This document shows positions 360-10,136 of a stretch of DNA of 10,136 nt, one piece after another. The DNA is taken from NCBI GenBank assembly GCA_017652345.1, contig JAGCBE010000418.1, forward strand, positions 1 through 10,136. The letters run 5' to 3'. Made by a program: the position numbers and the translations under genes. Origin of the DNA: Methanobrevibacter sp. (lineage in GTDB: Archaea > Methanobacteriota > Methanobacteria > Methanobacteriales > Methanobacteriaceae). Every line of letters starts with the position of its first letter. Position 1 is the stretch's first letter. The notes beneath the pieces are model-generated. The model made no database searches, was not told the DNA's origin, and saw only the letters and a program-made list of their open reading frames with translations.

Positions 360-719
360 TTAATTATTTTTTGAAATTGCTTGAAGCGCCTTCAATTGTT
401 GAATAAACTTATCAGCATCAAAATCTTTATCAGCTCTTAAAGTGATATTAAGAGTATTAATATTAGTAGATTCATCAGCACCAAAAACAGTAGAACTACT
501 TGAACCAAGTCCTCCTAAAGAACGTAAAGGTTTAATAAATTCATTCGCAAAATTACCAAGTTCCCATAGACCCTTAGTAGCAGTTGTAGGAAGAACTTTT
601 GAACCTTCTGGAATCAACGCTGCGCCAGATAATCCTGGAGTTGCATATAATTCTGGACCAAATTCTGATATAGAAGATAAACCACCTTGAGTATATAATG
701 ATCCAGCAGCATAACTATC
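360..719 (-). other. Tape measure C-terminal segment
   Basis: Residues 3120-3238 carry a G-G-L then FGPELYATPG stretch (F3139) followed by an IPEGSKVLP motif and a Trp-containing helix. The protein ends in a strand-rich tail with an FDADKFIQQLK helix. GPEL and VLP-type motifs of this kind are usual at the C-termini of siphophage tape measures, the end expected at the distal tail tip. The gene therefore ends as a normal tape measure, without truncation at this end. Confidence 0.8.
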
Positions 720-3700
720 TGCCACAGAACCAGAAAGATTATCCTTCCCAGAAATAATACCTTGATAATTAAAAATATCGTCAAGAAGTTGACTAATTAT
801 ATTATACTTAGTTGTTCCAGGACCAATAGGGCCTGTACCGCTATAATTTTTATGAATATTATTAAAATTATCAGATAAATATTTTGACAAAGCTTGATAG
901 TTAACATTATAATTGCCATCTTGAGTTTGGAAATAACTCTGAATCAATGGAGAAGCAGCATACCAACTTTGTTGAGCGTTAGGTCTCTCTTGAATCATTG
1001 ACATAATTCCTTCTAAAGCAAGTCTTTTTAAATAATCTTTTTTACCTTTAACTTCAGAATTTTGTGACATTAAAATGTCAAGATTTTTATCAGTGAATAA
1101 TTCAGTATACCAATTACTAACCTTATATTTGTTTTTTAAATTAGCAGCATATTCACCTGTTTTTTCAAGAGCAACTAAAGCCTGACTTTGAGTATTACTT
1201 GCACTCTTCAAAATTGAAGTGCTTGAATATTCGTTTTCTTTTAAATCGGCTATTAAATTACCAGCATATGTTTTAACAGAGTCAGAATTAGTTTCTTTAG
1301 TTGACTCTTCTTCAAGGATTTGTCTTAAACCTGCTCTATTAATTTCTCCTAAGAAAAATTTACTAAAGCCTTCTTTAATATTAGAATATGCCATATAATC
1401 AGAATAATTTTGCATTAAAGAACTATTTGCTCTCGCTTTGCCTTTTTCCCAAGCATCTGTTCCAGCATCTGTGAAATTTTCACTATTGAAGTTATAGATT
1501 TTATTATATATTTCTATTAATTTGTTAACTGAACCCCAAAGACCACTTGTTTCGTTTGTTCCAAGAGTCTTCAAGAAAGGACTCTCTGTTCCAAAAGCTT
1601 TTTCAAGATTCTTAAACTCTTGTCTATCTGAAAATTGATCTAACCAATCTTTTTGAGATTGCATTTCTGTAATAATCATATCTAGACTATCAACAAGTTT
1701 TTCATTTTCTAATTTATCAAGTTCTTCTTGAGCTTGTTGTATTGCTTCTTGATCAGCTTCATAAACAAAGCCAATGCCTTCTCTATAAACTTGGACTTTT
1801 TCATTTTGAGCATTTTCTAATTTAATACGAGCTTGTACTAATTTATTTTCATATTCTCTTTGAGTATTAACTTTTTCTAAAGCTACTTTTTGGTCTTGTA
1901 AGTTTTTAATTTGCATTTCATATATTTTGCTTAAATAAGAACGATATTTATCTAATATTGTAGTATCAATTGTTACATTAGCTGTCACAGAATTAAATTG
2001 TTTTTTGAAAGATTCGGCAATTTCAGAAAATTTATCCTTGTCTTCTTCTGTTAGTGTCATATAGGCGTCCCAGAATGATGAACCAGAATAAACATTTTCT
2101 AATGCTGTTTCTTTCATAAGTTCTAACATTTCTTCAGACAAAGTTGATTTCCAACTCTTAAAGAATTCTTCGTTGTTTCCTAAATCCTCTAATATGTTCT
2201 TTTTTTGTTGCTCAATATAAACATCTGTTTTATTAAAAATTTCACCAACTAAAGAACCAATATCTCCAACTTGTCCAATTAAATCAGGATATTTAGATAA
2301 AATTTCTTCAAAATTATCTGCTGTTAATCCTGTAGAAGATACGATAGAACTAAATAAAGAATCTAAACTTTCTAGAGAAGTCTTAACATCTCCATAGCCT
2401 TTCATAATATCTCCTAAAGAAAAACTGCTATATTTTTCTAAATTAGCATTTAATTCTTCTAAAGGAATATTTAATTGTTTCGCAAAAGAGACCATATATT
2501 CTTCTGCTTTTTGACCAGTTAATGCACCTCGAGAAACTTCTCCCAATGTATAGCTTTGACCAGTAAGAACTCCATATAAAGTAGCATTATTTTTGATATA
2601 ATCAGAAATATATCCTTTTGGTATTTTAGAAAGAGTATTTAAACTTCCTGTCCATTGATATTGACGTTGAATTTTACCATTCTCTTCATAAAAACCGCCT
2701 TGCTTATTAATATTTTCTAATATCATTTTAGCAATTTCGTCAATGCCTAATTCTTTTATTTGGGCAGTAGTTAAATTACCTATCCCTTGAGTTACGGCAC
2801 TCGCCTTTACTTGTTTTTCATTAATATCGAAAACAGAATTATCAATATTATGAACAGCATTATTAAGATCTGCAATATGTTTTTGTAGATTTTTATAGAA
2901 TTCAGATCCTTGTTTTCCTTGTTCCTCTAAATACTCTAATAATTGTCTTTCTGTATTCAATCTTTCAGAAGCAGTTCCTGAAAAATAAAGTTTATTATTT
3001 CTTCGAGCATTTTCTTCGAAGCCTTCAGGATTAGCTCTAATAAAATCATCAATAATAGATTTTACTCCACTACCATATGCATGTTTGACATAATTTGTTT
3101 GAAGAGTCTTCTCATTTTCATAAAGTTCATTTTCTTTACTTCTTCTAAAAGTGTCAGCTTCTGCTTGGTATACGGCTTGTTCCCAATCATTGATTACTTC
3201 TTTTCTTACATCTTCGTCTCCTAATAGATAATCATTGAATAAAAGTTTTATTCTATCAATAACTTCGACATCAGATAAAGACTCTATGTCCATATTAGGA
3301 TTATATTGTTTTAATAATAGACGCCCTGCTTGAGTATTTCCATAAAGTTGAGTAATTATACTGTTAATTGATGTTTTAGCTTTTTGATATTGATCATAAC
3401 TCAAAGCTCCTTCTGTAGAAAGTTCTTTTAAAGCATTAGTATCGCTTTGTATTGCTTTAATAGCATTATAAGATCTTTCTGCTTCTTTAGAACGTTCTCT
3501 ACGACTAATCTTTTCTTGGTCAATAAAATTACCTATCAAAGGAGCAACAAATTGTCCAAATAATTGACCAGCAATTGGTCCAAGAGTTGTTGCAAGAAGT
3601 GGGCCTACACCAGGAATCAAACTCAAAAGAACCGAAGAAGCAGCTGTTGCTCCGCCTGTAGCAAGACCTGCCTTGATTTTAGCTTCTTGAGAAGCATCTT

Positions 3701-6700
3701 CTCCATCTGAGTTTTTCAATCCTGCCCCAGTAGATAACCCAATAGTCACACCTTGAGCTAATCCTACTGTTGCTCCTACTGCAGCACGTTTACCTATTTC
3801 TATACCTGGTCTTTGTTGAGCCGCTTTGCCCGCACTTTTGGGTTCTCCTGTTACACCTTCTGCACTTCCTTCAGTAGGCTTTTTAGTAACTAAATAAGTA
3901 TAGATATTTCTTAAAGTTTGATTAATTGTAGTAACTTTAGTCGAAATTGTTTGGGCTGGAGCTCCTGTCACGTAATCGTAACCTTTTCTAACAAGACCTT
4001 TCTTTATTACGGTACCATCTTTATCTACTTCATTTTTTAGACCTCTGAAAGGATTTAAAATATTTAATCCTCTTAAGATACCTTTACCAATTCCAGAACC
4101 ACTATTACTATATAAGAAGTTAGACATTTTCATGCCTAAGACTTGTGCTCCTAATGTAGTCACAATTTGAGGTAAATATTCTACCACTTTAGCTAATAGA
4201 TTGTTTATAGATGTTAAAACACCACTATTTTCTAAATCTAGAGAAAACTTTTGCCAAGCATTTTGTAATGCTTTTTGAGAAGCTTCATAAGAGTCTAAAT
4301 AAGCATTATATTTTGTTTCTGCTGCTCCATGAGAAGTAGCTGAAATTTCTCTCAATTCTCGTGATTTAGAATAATTAGATAAAAGAACAAGCAAACTTTC
4401 ACGCTGACGAGTTCCTGCCATTGCAGTAGCTATAGCGTTTTTCTCTACTGTTGAATAAGTTTCCCATTTTTCTGCTAATTCTTCTAAAACAGTATCTAAT
4501 GCTCTAAATTCCATTGTACTTGTTCGAATAGAAATTCCCATTCTTCTTAAAACTTTTTCAATATCATTGATATTTTCTAGGTCTTCACCAACATTTTCAC
4601 TTCCCATATTAGAAAAAGCACCTGCTTTAACATTTCCATAACGAGAAATAATTGTTCTAAGACTTGCACCAATAGTCGAAGCTTCCTTTTGAGTAACGTC
4701 AGCAATAGTGCTTACATAAGCCATAGTTGTATCAATGTCTAAACCTGCTTGTTGTGCTGTTGTACTTAAGCTTTGCATTGCAGTAGCAACTTCTCCTGCA
4801 GAAACAGCTGCACTTTGGTCTAACATTGTTAATTTAGAAACTACATCTGTTGCATCAGAAACTTCAAGTTTAAATGCTTTTATAATACTTGTTAAATCTT
4901 TCGCTGCCGCTGCACTATCAATCATACCTAACTTACTTAAATACATTGAAGACTTAATTAATTCATTGACTTGATTGATAGAATAACCTTGACGAAGCCA
5001 TACATTCGCACTTTGAGCAACTTCAGCTACTGTAGCACCTAATTGTTTGCCCAAGTCAGCATAGGTTTTCATTAATTTAACAGCTTCTTCTCTTGTAGTA
5101 TTAGTTACTATTTGAATATTAACCATTACTTTGTCAAGTTGTTTTGCATAATCAACAACTTGTTTAAAAGATTGTGCTACTTTATTAACCAACTTATACC
5201 CTGCAGAGAAAACAGTCATTCGATAAAAAGCTGATTTTATTGAATTTCCGATTTGTCCCCAAACTGAATTTGCTTTTTGGCTAGCATCTATATGAGCCTT
5301 TTGAAGCGCTAATGCTTTTTCAGCTTTCGCTATATCTTCTGCAGCACGTTCTTTTGTAGATCCCGTAAGTCTGCTAGAATAGCCTATTAGATTATTTTTA
5401 GCTTCCTCAAGATAAGATTGATTAAGCTCCATTTCTGCGCCAACCAAACCTTTCTGAGTTCCTTTTGTTTTTTTATATCTTGCCTCTAAAGCCCATTGAT
5501 TTTTTTGGTATTGTTGATAAGCACTTAGATTTTCTCTAAAACCTTGATAAGATTCTTTCAAATCTTTTTCATCTTTTTCAAGTTTTTCTTTTTGAGCATC
5601 TCTTTCTGCTTTTGTTATATGATCTTCATAATCTTGCTTATAAGTTTTATCAGCATCTCGAGATAAAGTATCAATAGCTTCCGCAAGATTTTTAGCTGCA
5701 AGAGTAGCATCATGATATTTTTGTATATTTTCTGTAAGAGCTTCATTAACAGTTTTTAAAGCTTCAGATTCTTTTCCGTAAACTTTTTCAATTTGATTAG
5801 CTTCATCAGCTGATTCTTTAGCAGCTTTACGCGCTTCTTCAGCTTTTGCAACCTGCTCGTTGTATTGTGCAATTAAATTTTGACGTTGCGTATCAGCAGA
5901 CAGACCTTCAACGGCCTGAAGATTCACTGAACTTTCAGAACCCGCAACTTTAGAATATAAATTGCCAATTAAAGAAAGAGCCTCTTCAGAATTTAAACCA
6001 TAATCTTGTTGAAAAGCTCTATAAATTAAGCCTTTTTCAACAGAAGAAAAACCTCCATGAGAAACTACCTCAGCCTTCCCTGTAGAAGAATTTAACGAAA
6101 TTAGGTCTGTAATTATTTGTTCATCTGTTAATGGGACGTTTTTATTTTTTTTACCCATTAAAATTTCTAACCAACCTTTTGCTTCTGTGTTAGTTATTTC
6201 ATCCCAGTTGCCTGTTTTTTCATTATATTCTTTTGTTCTAAAATAAGTGTCAAAAATATCTTTAATGTTTTTATTATAAAGAGTTCCTTCTTTCCACTCA
6301 TCATAAAGGCTTCCTATACCAGCCCCTGTTACACCTTCTCTGCTTAAAGCATTACGTAAGCCTGCAAGCTGAGCTTTATAAATTAAAGGTTGTAATTTAT
6401 CTCCTGCTGTCAATTTACCAGTGCCATGTGTTTTATAATCAATTATATGTAAATTACCGTTTTTATCTACAGCTAATTGGTCTATAAACATACTCATAGC
6501 TTGTCCTGTAACAGGATTAATACCATTAAGCGCAGCTTCTGAGCCAACGGCTTTTCCAATCTTTGATACTTCTAGCTGCGCTAATTTTCCTAAATTTAAA
6601 ACATTTGAAGCATAATTTGTATTTCCAAATAATAGACGTGAACGAGCTTCTATTTCAGAATAAGTCTTTTGAAATTTTTTACTATCTTCTTTAGTTCCAG

Positions 6701-9700
6701 TATTTAAAAGTTCAGCGATAGCATGGACATCAGTTCCGTATTGAGTTCTCATGTATTGAGCTCTCATAGCCTTGAATAAGTCTGCATTGTCTTCAGTATC
6801 TGCTAATAATTTAGGAATATTATCGACTTTTCCTCCGACTATTAAAGAAGCCTTTTTATTTAAATCTGCAATAAAGTCTGTTAAGTCGTAATTAGATACG
6901 GCACCTGCTCCACCTTTTTGTATATAATAGCCGTCTGCAGTATGCGCTATTTTACTTGGTCCAGCTCCATAAATTCCGTTTTGAACAGCATTTTGTAAAG
7001 TGGCAAAATAACTATCTAGATCTTTAAAATGAGATCCAACTTCTTTTATAGTTTCTCCTGTTGTTTTTCCGTAACTAGAAAAAGGATCTACTAATCCTAA
7101 TCTTTTTAAATTTTCATAAATTTCAGGACTGTATCTTGCTCCTGCAGAAGACAACCAGTCATTTGTTGAACCAACACCTTCCAAAGCCCCTCTGTAAATA
7201 TTTCTTACAATATCCGACATGTCCCCAATTCTAATCTGACTGTCGAATTTTCCACTTATAGTGTGCCCTTCTTTTAAAGAGTCATCTAATATATTAAAAG
7301 AATTTTCTAATATATTAGAAGTTATTCCCAATTGTCTTTCAGCAATTGCTTTTTCAATTATTGGTCTTGCTTCTTCAAAGCTGTTAGTTTTTTCTATATC
7401 TTTTATTAACGAATTATATTGGTCTTCTGTTCCAAGCCAACCTAATTGAAAGATATTTCCTTTTTTTAATAAATTTTTTTTAGTATTAGAATAATTGCCA
7501 CTAGATAAAATTTCTAAAGTATTTGTCCACGCTTCAGCAACAGCTCTATCTGCAGTAAAGTCTTTGCCAAAAACAGAGCCTTCGTTTTTACTACCTTCAA
7601 AAATACCCAATTCTTGACCTTTGGCTATAATTTTTTTGAAATTTTTACCAGTAGACCACATAGATGCATTTCCCCAATAATTAGTAAGGAAATCATCTAA
7701 CATACCTCGAATTTCTTTATCGCTGTTTTTTTTACCAAGGTCTTTTGCTTTCTTTTTAATAGAAATAACAGTTTGTTCTGGCACTTGAGCAAAAGCTCTC
7801 ATCATTTCAGAAGCTATTGCAACATCTTTGTCCACAATATTATCAGGAGATATTCCTCCACTTATATCGTTGCCTGTTTGCAATAATACAGAGCTTATAC
7901 CTTCACGGACATTACTAAACAAACCTACATAATCTTTTCCTATACTTTTTAAGAAAGTAGCTTTACGTTGGTTTTCTTCTTTAAATTCTTCTTGAAGTTT
8001 ATTTTTATCCACAGTAAGCTTGTTCGCTCTATCAGTAGTACTAAAAATTCTATCTCCAGTTGCATCCATTTTGGCAATAAGATTTCTTTTCTTTAAAGCT
8101 ATCTCTGCTGCTTTTTGAATATCTGAACGAATTTCAGGAGTAACACTTCGTAATAATAAGTTTAGTTGAGATTTATCTCCGTCCCAGTCACCGTTAAGAA
8201 TACTCCATAAGATAGGGTTAACACCGAAAGTCCCCTTTCCTATATTTTCATCACCTTTTGCAGCTACAAAAGTTTCTACCCCCATTAAGTCTCCAAGACC
8301 TAAAAGAGTAGGGTAACGGTTCATAATACTTACTAAACCTTTTCCTGTAAAAGATTTATTTCCTACAGTTAAAACATCCAAAATTTTTTCTACTGCTTGA
8401 GTTTTAGAAATATTTTCTTTTAATTCTTTGTCAGTAAGTTCTTTATAAATATTCTTTAATTCAGTAACATCGTCTTTATTGCCAATTTTATGCAATTGTT
8501 CTGCAACATCTTCTCTACTTAAAATAACTGCAGCTTTATCTCTTAATGGAGCGTAGTCAAGTTCAGTAGCCGTAGCCAGAGCCATTAAAGCAGTAGGTAA
8601 TTCAGCCTTATTTGCATCCAAATAAGCTCCGCCTTCTTTGCTCAATAAAGCTTGATTATATTCTGCGACATTTTTAGCAACATTAGCTCCTAGTCCCAAA
8701 CTTGCCAATTCGCTATTTGCAGGTTCTTTTGAATATCTATGAGCAGATAATAATAATCTGTTTGCTATAATTGCAGATTGCGTTGGACTGTATTTTTCTT
8801 CCCCTTCTCTTTTTTCCAATGTTTTAAATCTAGGAAGAGCAATGAAACGTCCAGCATAAGCAGATTTTCCGCCAGTTCCTCGACGACCAAAGAATCTCTC
8901 TGGGTCGATAAAAATTGGAACGTCTTCAACAGTTTCCCAACCATATTTTTTTCTATTTTCTTCATTATCAAAAGCTTCTTGTCTTAAGTTTTGTGCTTTA
9001 ATTAAGTTTTTAATATAATCGTCAGTAACGTTTCCGTTTTTATCAAAAGCGTCCTCTGTATCTAATTGAGAATCTTCTAAATCGCTTGCAGATAATATTA
9101 CTCCGCCTGTTTTTTTTAAATCATCTAAAGTTAGTTCTGCGTTTGTGGCGATTCTTTGCATTAACTTACCAGCTTCTTTTTGTTTTGTATATTCAGCTGG
9201 ACTAGTTTTTGCAGAAAGGCTATTAATATATGCTTTTAATCCAGCCCCTTCTCCGCTAAGAGAAAGTAAACCTGCTGTTCTTTTTAAAGCGTTTATTTCT
9301 CTAAAGCCATAAGTACGGCTATCATTTGTATAAGGATTATCTGGATCATATAAATCATTTTCTCCATTATAAAACCTTAAAAAAGCTTGGGATACAATTG
9401 AATGTACTATTCCATTCTCAGTATTAGCTTCTAATCCTTCTGCTGTTTCTTTGAAAAAATTATTTTTTCTTAAAGCTTGAATTGCCTTAGTTCCCCCAAG
9501 TCCTTTTGTTATTCCTAAATCACGAATAATCTTAGAGTAACCACCAGCTTGTTTTAAAACTGTATATGGGTCAAGGTCCTTTTTAGATGCACTGTCATTC
9601 GAAAAGGTAACCATTCCATTTGAAACTGAAAAGGTTCCAAGACCAGTCCCTTTGAACTGCTTATTTAAAGTATCGGCTAAATCTTGTAATTCGGCTTTTC

Positions 9701-10136
9701 CCGCTTTCGCTCCGTTTTTCTCTTGGAAAGCTTGTAAATATTGATTATTTACATATTCAATAGTTCCTCTTACAAAATCATATACTCCTTTAGCTTTAAT
9801 TTCATTAGAAGCTGTTTGAATTGCATCAATATATTGCCTTTCTTCTGCGGAATATCCTGCAGCCTCTAGCACATAATCCATAATTTCAGATTCAATAGCT
9901 TGCATATTGAAACGACCAGAGCCAATTGCATTAAGACCCTTGAATCCTCCTCCAGGAAGAGTATCTTTTATTGTAAAAGTCCATCCTGAATCATCAAAAG
10001 TTTTTCGAGCTCCTGAGATAGAAGCTGTAAATTTTCCTCCATATGGGTTATCTTTTTTATAAGCTTCTTCAAGCATATTGTAAACTGCTTGTTCAATTTG
10101 TGCGTTTTCACTTTTTTTAGAATATTTTTTATTTCC
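360..10136 (-). CDS. Giant tail tape measure protein carrying RNA polymerase beta'-like and PD-(D/E)XK nuclease domains; N-terminus outside window
   Basis: Seen: one frame open from the right edge to a TAA at 362-360, giving 3258 residues. The Met at 10076 has no Shine-Dalgarno upstream and the frame runs on for 20 codons to the edge, so it is internal and the true start lies outside. Order by residue: unassigned 1-390; RNA polymerase beta'-like active-site region 390-800; unassigned 800-1100; RecB-like nuclease 1100-1245; coiled coil 1395-1605; TP901-type tape measure core 1610-1990; hydrophobic segments 2098-2185; helical region 2190-2700; coiled coil 2705-2830; tape-measure C-terminus 3130-3238. 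There is no cysteine and no recognisable lysozyme or peptidase domain. Known: tape measure proteins set tail length, fill the tail tube and leave the tail at infection. Inferred: the N-terminal enzymes are ejected cargo. The tape measure call is near certain, the polymerase and nuclease calls strong. At over 3200 residues it is much longer than usual tape measures (often 700-2000). Confidence 0.96.
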   Translation of the reverse strand, partial: GNKKYSKKSENAQIEQAVYNMLEEAYKKDNPYGGKFTASISGARKTFDDSGWTFTIKDTLPGGGFKGLNAIGSGRFNMQAIESEIMDYVLEAAGYSAEERQYIDAIQTASNEIKAKGVYDFVRGTIEYVNNQYLQAFQEKNGAKAGKAELQDLADTLNKQFKGTGLGTFSVSNGMVTFSNDSASKKDLDPYTVLKQAGGYSKIIRDLGITKGLGGTKAIQALRKNNFFKETAEGLEANTENGIVHSIVSQAFLRFYNGENDLYDPDNPYTNDSRTYGFREINALKRTAGLLSLSGEGAGLKAYINSLSAKTSPAEYTKQKEAGKLMQRIATNAELTLDDLKKTGGVILSASDLEDSQLDTEDAFDKNGNVTDDYIKNLIKAQNLRQEAFDNEENRKKYGWETVEDVPIFIDPERFFGRRGTGGKSAYAGRFIALPRFKTLEKREGEEKYSPTQSAIIANRLLLSAHRYSKEPANSELASLGLGANVAKNVAEYNQALLSKEGGAYLDANKAELPTALMALATATELDYAPLRDKAAVILSREDVAEQLHKIGNKDDVTELKNIYKELTDKELKENISKTQAVEKILDVLTVGNKSFTGKGLVSIMNRYPTLLGLGDLMGVETFVAAKGDENIGKGTFGVNPILWSILNGDWDGDKSQLNLLLRSVTPEIRSDIQKAAEIALKKRNLIAKMDATGDRIFSTTDRANKLTVDKNKLQEEFKEENQRKATFLKSIGKDYVGLFSNVREGISSVLLQTGNDISGGISPDNIVDKDVAIASEMMRAFAQVPEQTVISIKKKAKDLGKKNSDKEIRGMLDDFLTNYWGNASMWSTGKNFKKIIAKGQELGIFEGSKNEGSVFGKDFTADRAVAEAWTNTLEILSSGNYSNTKKNLLKKGNIFQLGWLGTEDQYNSLIKDIEKTNSFEEARPIIEKAIAERQLGITSNILENSFNILDDSLKEGHTISGKFDSQIRIGDMSDIVRNIYRGALEGVGSTNDWLSSAGARYSPEIYENLKRLGLVDPFSSYGKTTGETIKEVGSHFKDLDSYFATLQNAVQNGIYGAGPSKIAHTADGYYIQKGGAGAVSNYDLTDFIADLNKKASLIVGGKVDNIPKLLADTEDNADLFKAMRAQYMRTQYGTDVHAIAELLNTGTKEDSKKFQKTYSEIEARSRLLFGNTNYASNVLNLGKLAQLEVSKIGKAVGSEAALNGINPVTGQAMSMFIDQLAVDKNGNLHIIDYKTHGTGKLTAGDKLQPLIYKAQLAGLRNALSREGVTGAGIGSLYDEWKEGTLYNKNIKDIFDTYFRTKEYNEKTGNWDEITNTEAKGWLEILMGKKNKNVPLTDEQIITDLISLNSSTGKAEVVSHGGFSSVEKGLIYRAFQQDYGLNSEEALSLIGNLYSKVAGSESSVNLQAVEGLSADTQRQNLIAQYNEQVAKAEEARKAAKESADEANQIEKVYGKESEALKTVNEALTENIQKYHDATLAAKNLAEAIDTLSRDADKTYKQDYEDHITKAERDAQKEKLEKDEKDLKESYQGFRENLSAYQQYQKNQWALEARYKKTKGTQKGLVGAEMELNQSYLEEAKNNLIGYSSRLTGSTKERAAEDIAKAEKALALQKAHIDASQKANSVWGQIGNSIKSAFYRMTVFSAGYKLVNKVAQSFKQVVDYAKQLDKVMVNIQIVTNTTREEAVKLMKTYADLGKQLGATVAEVAQSANVWLRQGYSINQVNELIKSSMYLSKLGMIDSAAAAKDLTSIIKAFKLEVSDATDVVSKLTMLDQSAAVSAGEVATAMQSLSTTAQQAGLDIDTTMAYVSTIADVTQKEASTIGASLRTIISRYGNVKAGAFSNMGSENVGEDLENINDIEKVLRRMGISIRTSTMEFRALDTVLEELAEKWETYSTVEKNAIATAMAGTRQRESLLVLLSNYSKSRELREISATSHGAAETKYNAYLDSYEASQKALQNAWQKFSLDLENSGVLTSINNLLAKVVEYLPQIVTTLGAQVLGMKMSNFLYSNSGSGIGKGILRGLNILNPFRGLKNEVDKDGTVIKKGLVRKGYDYVTGAPAQTISTKVTTINQTLRNIYTYLVTKKPTEGSAEGVTGEPKSAGKAAQQRPGIEIGKRAAVGATVGLAQGVTIGLSTGAGLKNSDGEDASQEAKIKAGLATGGATAASSVLLSLIPGVGPLLATTLGPIAGQLFGQFVAPLIGNFIDQEKISRRERSKEAERSYNAIKAIQSDTNALKELSTEGALSYDQYQKAKTSINSIITQLYGNTQAGRLLLKQYNPNMDIESLSDVEVIDRIKLLFNDYLLGDEDVRKEVINDWEQAVYQAEADTFRRSKENELYENEKTLQTNYVKHAYGSGVKSIIDDFIRANPEGFEENARRNNKLYFSGTASERLNTERQLLEYLEEQGKQGSEFYKNLQKHIADLNNAVHNIDNSVFDINEKQVKASAVTQGIGNLTTAQIKELGIDEIAKMILENINKQGGFYEENGKIQRQYQWTGSLNTLSKIPKGYISDYIKNNATLYGVLTGQSYTLGEVSRGALTGQKAEEYMVSFAKQLNIPLEELNANLEKYSSFSLGDIMKGYGDVKTSLESLDSLFSSIVSSTGLTADNFEEILSKYPDLIGQVGDIGSLVGEIFNKTDVYIEQQKKNILEDLGNNEEFFKSWKSTLSEEMLELMKETALENVYSGSSFWDAYMTLTEEDKDKFSEIAESFKKQFNSVTANVTIDTTILDKYRSYLSKIYEMQIKNLQDQKVALEKVNTQREYENKLVQARIKLENAQNEKVQVYREGIGFVYEADQEAIQQAQEELDKLENEKLVDSLDMIITEMQSQKDWLDQFSDRQEFKNLEKAFGTESPFLKTLGTNETSGLWGSVNKLIEIYNKIYNFNSENFTDAGTDAWEKGKARANSSLMQNYSDYMAYSNIKEGFSKFFLGEINRAGLRQILEEESTKETNSDSVKTYAGNLIADLKENEYSSTSILKSASNTQSQALVALEKTGEYAANLKNKYKVSNWYTELFTDKNLDILMSQNSEVKGKKDYLKRLALEGIMSMIQERPNAQQSWYAASPLIQSYFQTQDGNYNVNYQALSKYLSDNFNNIHKNYSGTGPIGPGTTKYNIISQLLDDIFNYQGIISGKDNLSGSVADSYAAGSLYTQGGLSSISEFGPELYATPGLSGAALIPEGSKVLPTTATKGLWELGNFANEFIKPLRSLGGLGSSSSTVFGADESTNINTLNITLRADKDFDADKFIQQLKALQAISKNN
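1587..1979 (-). other. C-terminal coiled coil with tape-measure YREGxGFVYEAD motif
   Basis: Residues 2699-2829 form a charged coiled coil. It carries a VYREGIGFVYEADQEAI block flanked by helices ending in Ala-Gln and Leu-Asp-Lys-Leu. Similar blocks recur in the distal halves of Bacillota phage tape measures, as I recall the family. This supports a long-tailed Bacillota phage. Confidence 0.7.
1980..3521 (-). other. Helical region of the tape measure, unassigned
   Basis: Residues 2186-2698 are soluble, helix-rich and full of charged residues, with short Gly/Asn/Tyr patches (for example around 2390-2480). They resemble the variable central parts of tape measures. I see no enzyme motif; in particular there is no lysozyme-type Glu/Asp pattern, NlpC/P60 Cys-His pair or zinc peptidase motif. 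Confidence 0.55.
3522..3794 (-). other. Gly/Ala-rich hydrophobic segments of the tape measure
   Basis: There are two hydrophobic stretches, at residues 2098-2120 and 2136-2185, the second with an IPGVGP turn at 2154-2159 between two apolar helices. Tape measure proteins commonly carry such segments, thought to insert in the host membrane and help form the DNA channel. That role is inferred from the family, not shown by the sequence. Confidence 0.7.
4107..5249 (-). other. TP901-family phage tail tape measure core domain
   Basis: Residues 1610-1990 have the layout of the TP901-type tape measure core. An initial helix (FYRM and YKLVNK near 1617-1630) is followed by the VxNIQxxTNTTREEA-like block, a segment on module choice in helices rich in Ala and Ser (SAAVSAGEVATAM near 1755), the DVTQKEASTIGASLRTI helix, and a GTRQRESLL block before a long closing helix. 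I know these from siphophage tape measures of Bacillota. The domain is complete and uninterrupted. It identifies the protein as a tail component of a long-tailed phage. Confidence 0.95.
5262..5894 (-). other. Long coiled coil preceding the tape measure core
   Basis: Residues 1395-1605 are strongly helical and rich in Ala, Glu, Lys and Gln, almost without Pro or Gly for long stretches, with heptad-like spacing of Leu/Ala/Ile. Such rods are typical of tape measure proteins, where extended helices span the tail tube. This one separates the enzymatic N-terminal half from the TP901-type core. Confidence 0.8.
6342..6779 (-). other. RecB/Cas4-like PD-(D/E)XK nuclease domain
   Basis: The full ordered signature of the RecB-type PD-(D/E)XK fold is visible. 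G1114-T-D-V-H1118 is the G-x-x-x-H block that starts the domain. S1179-E1180 opens a strand before the active site. D1199 sits in an FIDQL strand, followed by a turn with D1204 and G1207. Motif III is I-I-D1213-Y-K1215-T, and Q1229-x-x-x-Y1233 lies 14 residues later. Known: H, D, D and K of this set coordinate metal and catalyse phosphodiester cleavage, and QxxxY helps bind DNA in RecB/AddAB/Cas4 nucleases. There are no cysteines, so no Cas4/AddB-type iron-sulphur cluster. No helicase motifs are attached. The substrate is unknown; host DNA, incoming phage DNA ends or a competitor are all possible. Confidence 0.85.
6780..7676 (-). other. Linker region between polymerase and nuclease domains, unassigned
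   Basis: This segment covers residues 801-1099. It is mixed alpha/beta, with several Trp/Tyr/Gly-rich patches (about 840-900) and an aromatic and Gly-rich stretch at 1000-1075. I recognise no domain. By position it could hold the remaining polymerase elements (bridge-helix or trigger-loop equivalents) or a structural adaptor to the nuclease. That is inference from order only. Confidence 0.4.
7677..8909 (-). other. RNA polymerase beta'-like double-psi beta-barrel domain
   Basis: Three blocks match the beta' catalytic subunit in order. G403-K404-x-x-Y407-x-G409-R410 followed by an IALP stretch matches the bacterial GKRxxYSGRSVI block. N586-R587-x-P-T-L591 matches NRAPTL. N628-G-D630-W-D632-G-D634 matches NADFDGD, preceded by NPIL where bacteria have HPLV. 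Known: the three Asp of DxDGD bind the catalytic Mg2+, and E. coli beta' Arg425 and Asn458 contact the incoming NTP; R587 and N628 occupy those places. Further on, G718-L-F-S-N722 and a helix with Q764, Q768 and K774 resemble elements that follow the triad in single-chain YonO/QDE-1-like polymerases (weaker). All key residues are intact, so activity is plausible. A beta-like partner barrel is not visible. Confidence 0.85.
8910..10136 (-). other. N-terminal visible segment of the giant protein, unassigned
   Basis: This segment covers residues 1-389 plus 20 residues upstream to the window edge. It is soluble-looking, mixed helix and strand, rich in Gly, Asn and Lys, with no membrane segment or signal peptide. 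I recognise no family. Two-barrel RNA polymerases place a beta-like barrel bearing two catalytic lysines before the beta'-like barrel. I could not locate a convincing GDK/GNKG-like lysine pair here, so that half is either too diverged to see or lies beyond the right edge. Confidence 0.5.

Follow-up and report, generated by a model that had tools for sequence, protein, structure and literature searches.

What are RNA polymerase motifs doing inside a giant phage tail protein? The question is raised by a 10,136-nucleotide stretch assigned to Methanobrevibacter sp. (GCA_017652345.1, contig JAGCBE010000418.1; "the window" is this whole stretch), which is occupied by a single minus-strand open reading frame (ORF) running from 10136 to 360 with no internal stop and with its 5' end open at the window edge. 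An earlier note had proposed an RNA polymerase (RNAP) beta'-like catalytic centre inside a tape measure protein, and the blocks it named are indeed found in this one frame, GKSAYAGR, NRYPTL, NPIL (620-623 from the first Met, just ahead of the triad) and NGDWDGD following one another. The invariant motifs and the predicted fold suggest that the N-terminal part of the protein is, very probably, a single-chain two-barrel RNAP, likely carried in the tail, from where it would enter along with the DNA and transcribe the first phage genes. The features are listed here with residues counted from the window edge, except where counted from the first Met, which lies 20 residues into the frame and was the starting point in the earlier note.

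360..10136, minus strand: giant ORF with RNAP, nuclease-like module and tape measure, in this order; 3258 codons within the window
7137..10136, minus strand: putative two-barrel RNAP module, the portion inside the window (residues 1-1000), from predicted models and fold searches
8157..9299, minus strand: putative beta'-like catalytic domain (residues 280-660), from a predicted model and fold searches
8847..8870, minus strand: GKSAYAGR, resembling the beta' block GKxxYxGR (403-410 from the first Met); unconserved in relatives
8304..8321, minus strand: NRYPTL (586-591 from the first Met), with Arg607 and Pro609; invariant in 36/36 rows
8175..8195, minus strand: NGDWDGD (628-634 from the first Met), with Asp650, Asp652 and Asp654 as the expected Mg-binding triad; Asn648 in 27/36 rows
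7911..7937, minus strand: KDYVGLFSN (734-742), family block G-x-F-S-N past the barrel; Gly738 in 31/36 and Asn742 in 32/36 rows
7752..7775, minus strand: QTVISIKK (788-795), family block Q..IS.KK; Gln788 and Lys794 in 36/36 rows
4413..5060, minus strand: tape measure core, PhageMin_Tail PF10145 (residues 1693-1908); E 5.5e-27, 95.4 bits against a cut-off of 33.2

Conserved motifs and predicted fold

Conservation was read from a 36-row alignment of the window, 25 proteins and 10 locus fragments, which includes two pairs of near or exact copies (the window with P0003, and the identical P0079 and L010). P0003 is a relative on a separate contig, 93 percent identical to the window over residues 400-900; with 3743 residues, it provides the N-terminus absent from the window ORF. 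Identity to the window is 15-26 percent across the alignment, P0003 excepted at 92, and the sequence surrounding the motifs drifts fast among relatives. Arg607, Pro609, Asp650, Asp652, Gly653, Asp654, Gln788 and Lys794 are invariant in all 36 rows, which were selected by D.DGD and not by RxP or the downstream blocks, and the Asn before the triad is kept in 27. Going by cellular RNAP, Arg607 of NRxP and Asn648 are presumably the residues that contact the nucleoside triphosphate (NTP).

The three beta' blocks of the earlier note fared differently. NRxP and DxDGD are family features and exceed chance by far; among 2750 shuffled extensions, RxP accompanied DxDxD in 88 and DxDGD in 3. GKxxYxGR does not appear to be a family feature though it is present in the window, with Arg at its place in about 8 of 36 rows and Lys in 4 (alignment read by eye), and it sits in a low-confidence stretch of the window model. 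The NGDWDGD heptapeptide alone proves nothing, because the corresponding DNA pattern also matched 7 unrelated viral contigs by chance, none of which has a relative's ORF around the match.

The fold was the point at which, by the terms set beforehand, the proposed catalytic centre could fail. Comparison of the predicted window model by Foldseek returned RNA polymerases for 50 of the 50 matches listed, and RNA polymerases likewise make up 50 of the 50 VIA rows among the matches listed; these fold matches to a predicted model point to a beta'-like double-psi barrel. Confidence in the model is mostly 70-95 from residue 511 onward and uneven (45-81) before this point within residues 280-660. A family profile run against PDB sequences also recovered RNA polymerases, in 23 of 28 matches, each of them weak (best E 0.022) and many being versions of Rpb1. 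The best Foldseek and profile matches include the beta' parts of the non-virion RNAPs of AR9 and phiKZ (7s01, 7s00, 8que, 7ogp), which are separate subunits of multi-subunit enzymes.

The matched chains are of the beta' type for the window and of the beta type for the upstream half of the relative L013, where beta-type chains account for 50 of the 50 VIA rows among the matches listed, with middling Z. With the triad as reference point, the opening portion of the beta-like half would fall upstream of the window. Past the barrel, two long helices predicted by the model (721-753 and 770-791) go with the conserved G.FSN and Q..IS.KK blocks, and Q..IS.KK, at the end of helix 770-791, is a candidate bridge helix/trigger loop region. 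By eye, it recalls IQVAVDRQK of P23-45 gp64 and SIDFPK of P23-45 gp96.

The domain might instead be a dead relic, a former two-barrel RNAP that has lost catalysis and now plays a structural or DNA-binding role in the tail, and such a fate would agree with the missing GKxxYxGR, the fast drift near the motifs and the dispensability of the module, which is absent from many relatives. We nevertheless consider it improbable. In four relatives the Gly of DxDGD has been replaced and all three Asp persist (DFDKD in P0069 and P0070, DFDSD in L034, DYDRD in L019), and the 36-row profile picks up all four; the same profile gave no match in 15 other sequences (13 RNAP-less proteins, L009 and L018). Three Asp retained in this way, together with Arg607, Gln788 and Lys794 in 36 of 36 rows, form the pattern expected of an active site and not of a scaffold. 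In an active RNAP, Asp650, Asp652 and Asp654 would perform two-metal catalysis with Arg607 and Asn648 at the NTP, and the beta-like barrel would lie upstream, partly outside the window.

Fusion to the tape measure and its recurrence

The proposed fusion to a tape measure is borne out, as the RNAP motifs and PF10145 lie in one frame, and eleven PHROG tape measure families overlap the PhageMin_Tail core. A search with residues 1600-2500 of P0003 (nuclease-like part to core) yielded 98 giant relatives, including the window's own cluster P0002. At least 2080 residues, measured to the core start, precede the core in 55 of these, and in 54 of the 55 an RxP is trailed by DxDxD at a distance of up to about 75 residues, the pair always preceding the core. 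The sole long-extension relative lacking the pair is P0078, with an extension of about 2128 residues. Among the 43 with shorter extensions the pair occurs in two, P0002 and P0005, whose ORFs start just before the polymerase and look cut. With P0009, whose triad at residue 34 is too close to the start for the pair test, RNAP-bearing proteins number 57 of the 98, many being near-copies. Judged by sequence, the fusion is real and recurrent across many separate contigs. L009, with about 2628 residues before the core, has no RNAP recognised by the 36-row profile and so joins P0078 as a case of a long N-terminal extension without recognisable polymerase.

Presence of the RNAP was mapped on a quick tree with long branches, built from 49 thinned cores that include the window's sequence; short core matches, near-copies at 93 percent or above and P0002 had been dropped. 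Of these rows, 27 bear the RNAP, window included, and its presence changes 8 times, at least 6 of the changes being forced by starred branches. Some sister cores differ in the RNAP, for example P0063 vs P0067 and P0062 vs P0075. All 15 RNAP-less proteins checked start with Met; some of them come from short contigs, however, and in individual cases the RNAP may be cut off or have escaped detection.

The core itself matches 100 phage-collection records, at least 90 of them named after genera that we take to belong to the Bacillota, and in the four of the 100 that were inspected (Phass-1, Perkons, MT835936 and PMBT24) no polymerase was found before the core. YomI of SPbeta (SPBc2) has a homologous tape measure core (24.5 percent identity, E 2e-26). 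Back-translated RNAP-region peptides used as a locus search found no relative, and neither did two scans of genome contigs, hence no prophage at that sensitivity. For a free-standing version, a protein search with the RNAP region gave only the window's cluster and P0003 (7982 candidates) and a query alignment of 11 RNAP fragments matched nothing, both with limited sensitivity. A second RNAP in the same records was looked for with profile A2, from which a divergent enzyme would escape; it matches 12 of 15 records at a single place each except L041, whose two adjoining A2 pieces were taken as one recoded gene.

Several loci of the family have unusual gene structures. The relative in L037 / L038 has an open frame of 7185 residues with RFPS...NLDFDGD at residue 2002 of the available part, longer than P23-45 gp96. 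Long frames require a stop codon to be read as a residue in L009, L020, L023, L039 and L044 (TAG) and in L012 (TGA), where the recoded frame of 3912 residues contains KGDYDGD; the polymerase motif is present in L012, L039 and L044. Split genes were considered for L013 and L014 and rejected; the break interrupts the tape measure core, and in L013 it is overlain by a group I intron (L013:14166-14525, likewise within the core). Core residue 269 is the common end point of the matches in L034 and in L020/L036, the latter two being on one contig; the core is broken in L011 and L014 as well. The polymerase-tape measure ORF of L014 is preceded, at a distance of about 1.3 kb, by a ROOL RNA (273.7 bits; L014:923-1546).

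Comparison with known polymerases

The earlier note knew of no such fusion to a TP901-type tape measure, but a tape-measure-fused virion RNAP has already been published for the Thermus phage P23-45 (PMC10770324). Its gp96 (PDB entries 8h2m and 8h2n) is a tape measure protein of 5,002 residues with an N-terminal virion RNAP; N-terminal fragments extend RNA on a scaffold, and virions contain the RNAP domain within the full-size protein (PMC10770324). It also binds a stretch of 9 kb at one end of the genome, probably the end that leads during entry, and the authors propose that transcription takes place during passage of the DNA through the tape measure pore (PMC10770324). Like the module predicted in the window, this single-chain two-barrel RNAP with DxDGD lies towards the N-terminus of a giant tape measure chain, and both families have relatives with and without the RNAP module. 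They differ in the remaining parts, with a PhageMin_Tail core and a RecB-like module in the window family and metallopeptidase and membrane domains in gp96 (PMC10770324). In tblastn searches, residues 1-1200 of gp96 matched 10 phage records, all from Thermus, and the first 1545 residues of the window had no match among phage records up to an E of 1; hhalign of gp96 against the window family lines up the triads at a probability of only 2.1 percent.

By analogy with gp96, the window protein may be an active polymerase located in the virion. As a piece of the tape measure it would sit in the tail tube until infection, when it would be ejected and would transcribe the leading end of the incoming DNA, in line with the proposal for P23-45 gp96 (PMC10770324). 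Nothing in the sequence proves delivery, and the polymerase might be active yet not virion-delivered, with the giant chain cut and the RNAP part serving as a late or non-virion enzyme in the cell. We give this possibility equally little credit as the dead relic, given that the fusion to the tape measure is retained in many contigs and that the P23-45 domain is found in virions within full-size gp96 (PMC10770324).

The kind of polymerase can be weighed from the fold matches. QDE-1, an RNA/DNA-dependent RNA polymerase, has the lowest root-mean-square deviation among the matches listed for the window model (3.7 over 210 residues). QDE-1, YonO, crAss-like gp66 and P23-45 gp64 have both barrels on one chain, the beta-like barrel preceding the beta'-like one, an order also predicted for L013. 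None of the four is known to be joined to a tape measure. A different two-barrel activity, whether RNA-dependent RNA synthesis, priming or PolD-like DNA synthesis, could be argued from the QDE-1 match and from PolD sharing both barrels (PMC10770324), but the remaining fold matches listed are DNA-dependent RNAPs and DNA is the template of the only tape-measure-fused member characterised (PMC10770324), making this very unlikely. PolD, gp66, YonO and 8h2m/8h2n are not among the fold matches listed, which excludes none of them. That the motifs arose by chance or by convergence within a coiled tape measure chain, the reading to which the heptapeptide matches and the 88 shuffled pairs would point, is scarcely credible in the face of motifs invariant in 36 of 36 rows, 54 of 55 long extensions with the pair and RNA polymerase fold matches.

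The nuclease-like module and the meaning of the arrangement

A further module lies mostly between the RNAP and the core.

6324..6749, minus strand: putative RecB-like PD-(D/E)XK nuclease-like module (residues 1130-1271); PF12705 at E 3.8e-4, 20.9 bits against a cut-off of 22

It holds His1138, Glu1200, Asp1219 and Asp1233-Tyr-Lys1235, which weakly suggest a RecB-like nuclease. A profile built from 12 relatives matches 52 of the 57 RNAP-bearing proteins (40 of 45 once its training rows are set aside) and 1 of the 41 RNAP-less ones, and [DE]xK is present in 50 of the 52 matched stretches; these counts may be too high, since two training rows, P0072 and P0079, lack the motif in the stretch used. 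Weighing against the assignment, PF12705 at E 0.1 gave no match in the four RNAP-bearing relatives scanned (P0004, P0029, P0065 and P0046). The RNAP-less P0063 has PF12705 in a precomputed table, so the nuclease-like module is not tied to the polymerase. If delivered with the polymerase, it would bring in another enzyme activity, one directed at DNA.

Tape-measure-fused RNAPs are known from the Thermus phages P23-45, P74-26, G20c and TSP4. No further report was found among the titles and abstract openings listed from the open literature. The window lineage appears to be a different, widespread variant that lacks recognisable BLAST kinship to gp96, adding a nuclease-like module, a different tape measure with a core resembling those of Bacillota phages, and repeated exchange. 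Whether it amounts to more is finely balanced in our view: an unreported large phage lineage with Bacillota-type tape measures may have built a polymerase and a RecB-like nuclease into the ruler as an injected start-up kit, gaining or losing the polymerase cassette at least 6 times, such that the ruler is an exchangeable scaffold for enzyme delivery, independently of P23-45.

The 57 RNAP-bearing relatives among 98, together with possibly incomplete viral contigs of up to 169 kb, some of them with recoded stop codons, point to an arrangement that would be both common and modular. The first phage genes would be freed from the host polymerase, and the family offers a sequence set for testing the coupling of DNA entry to transcription and the minimal two-barrel active site.
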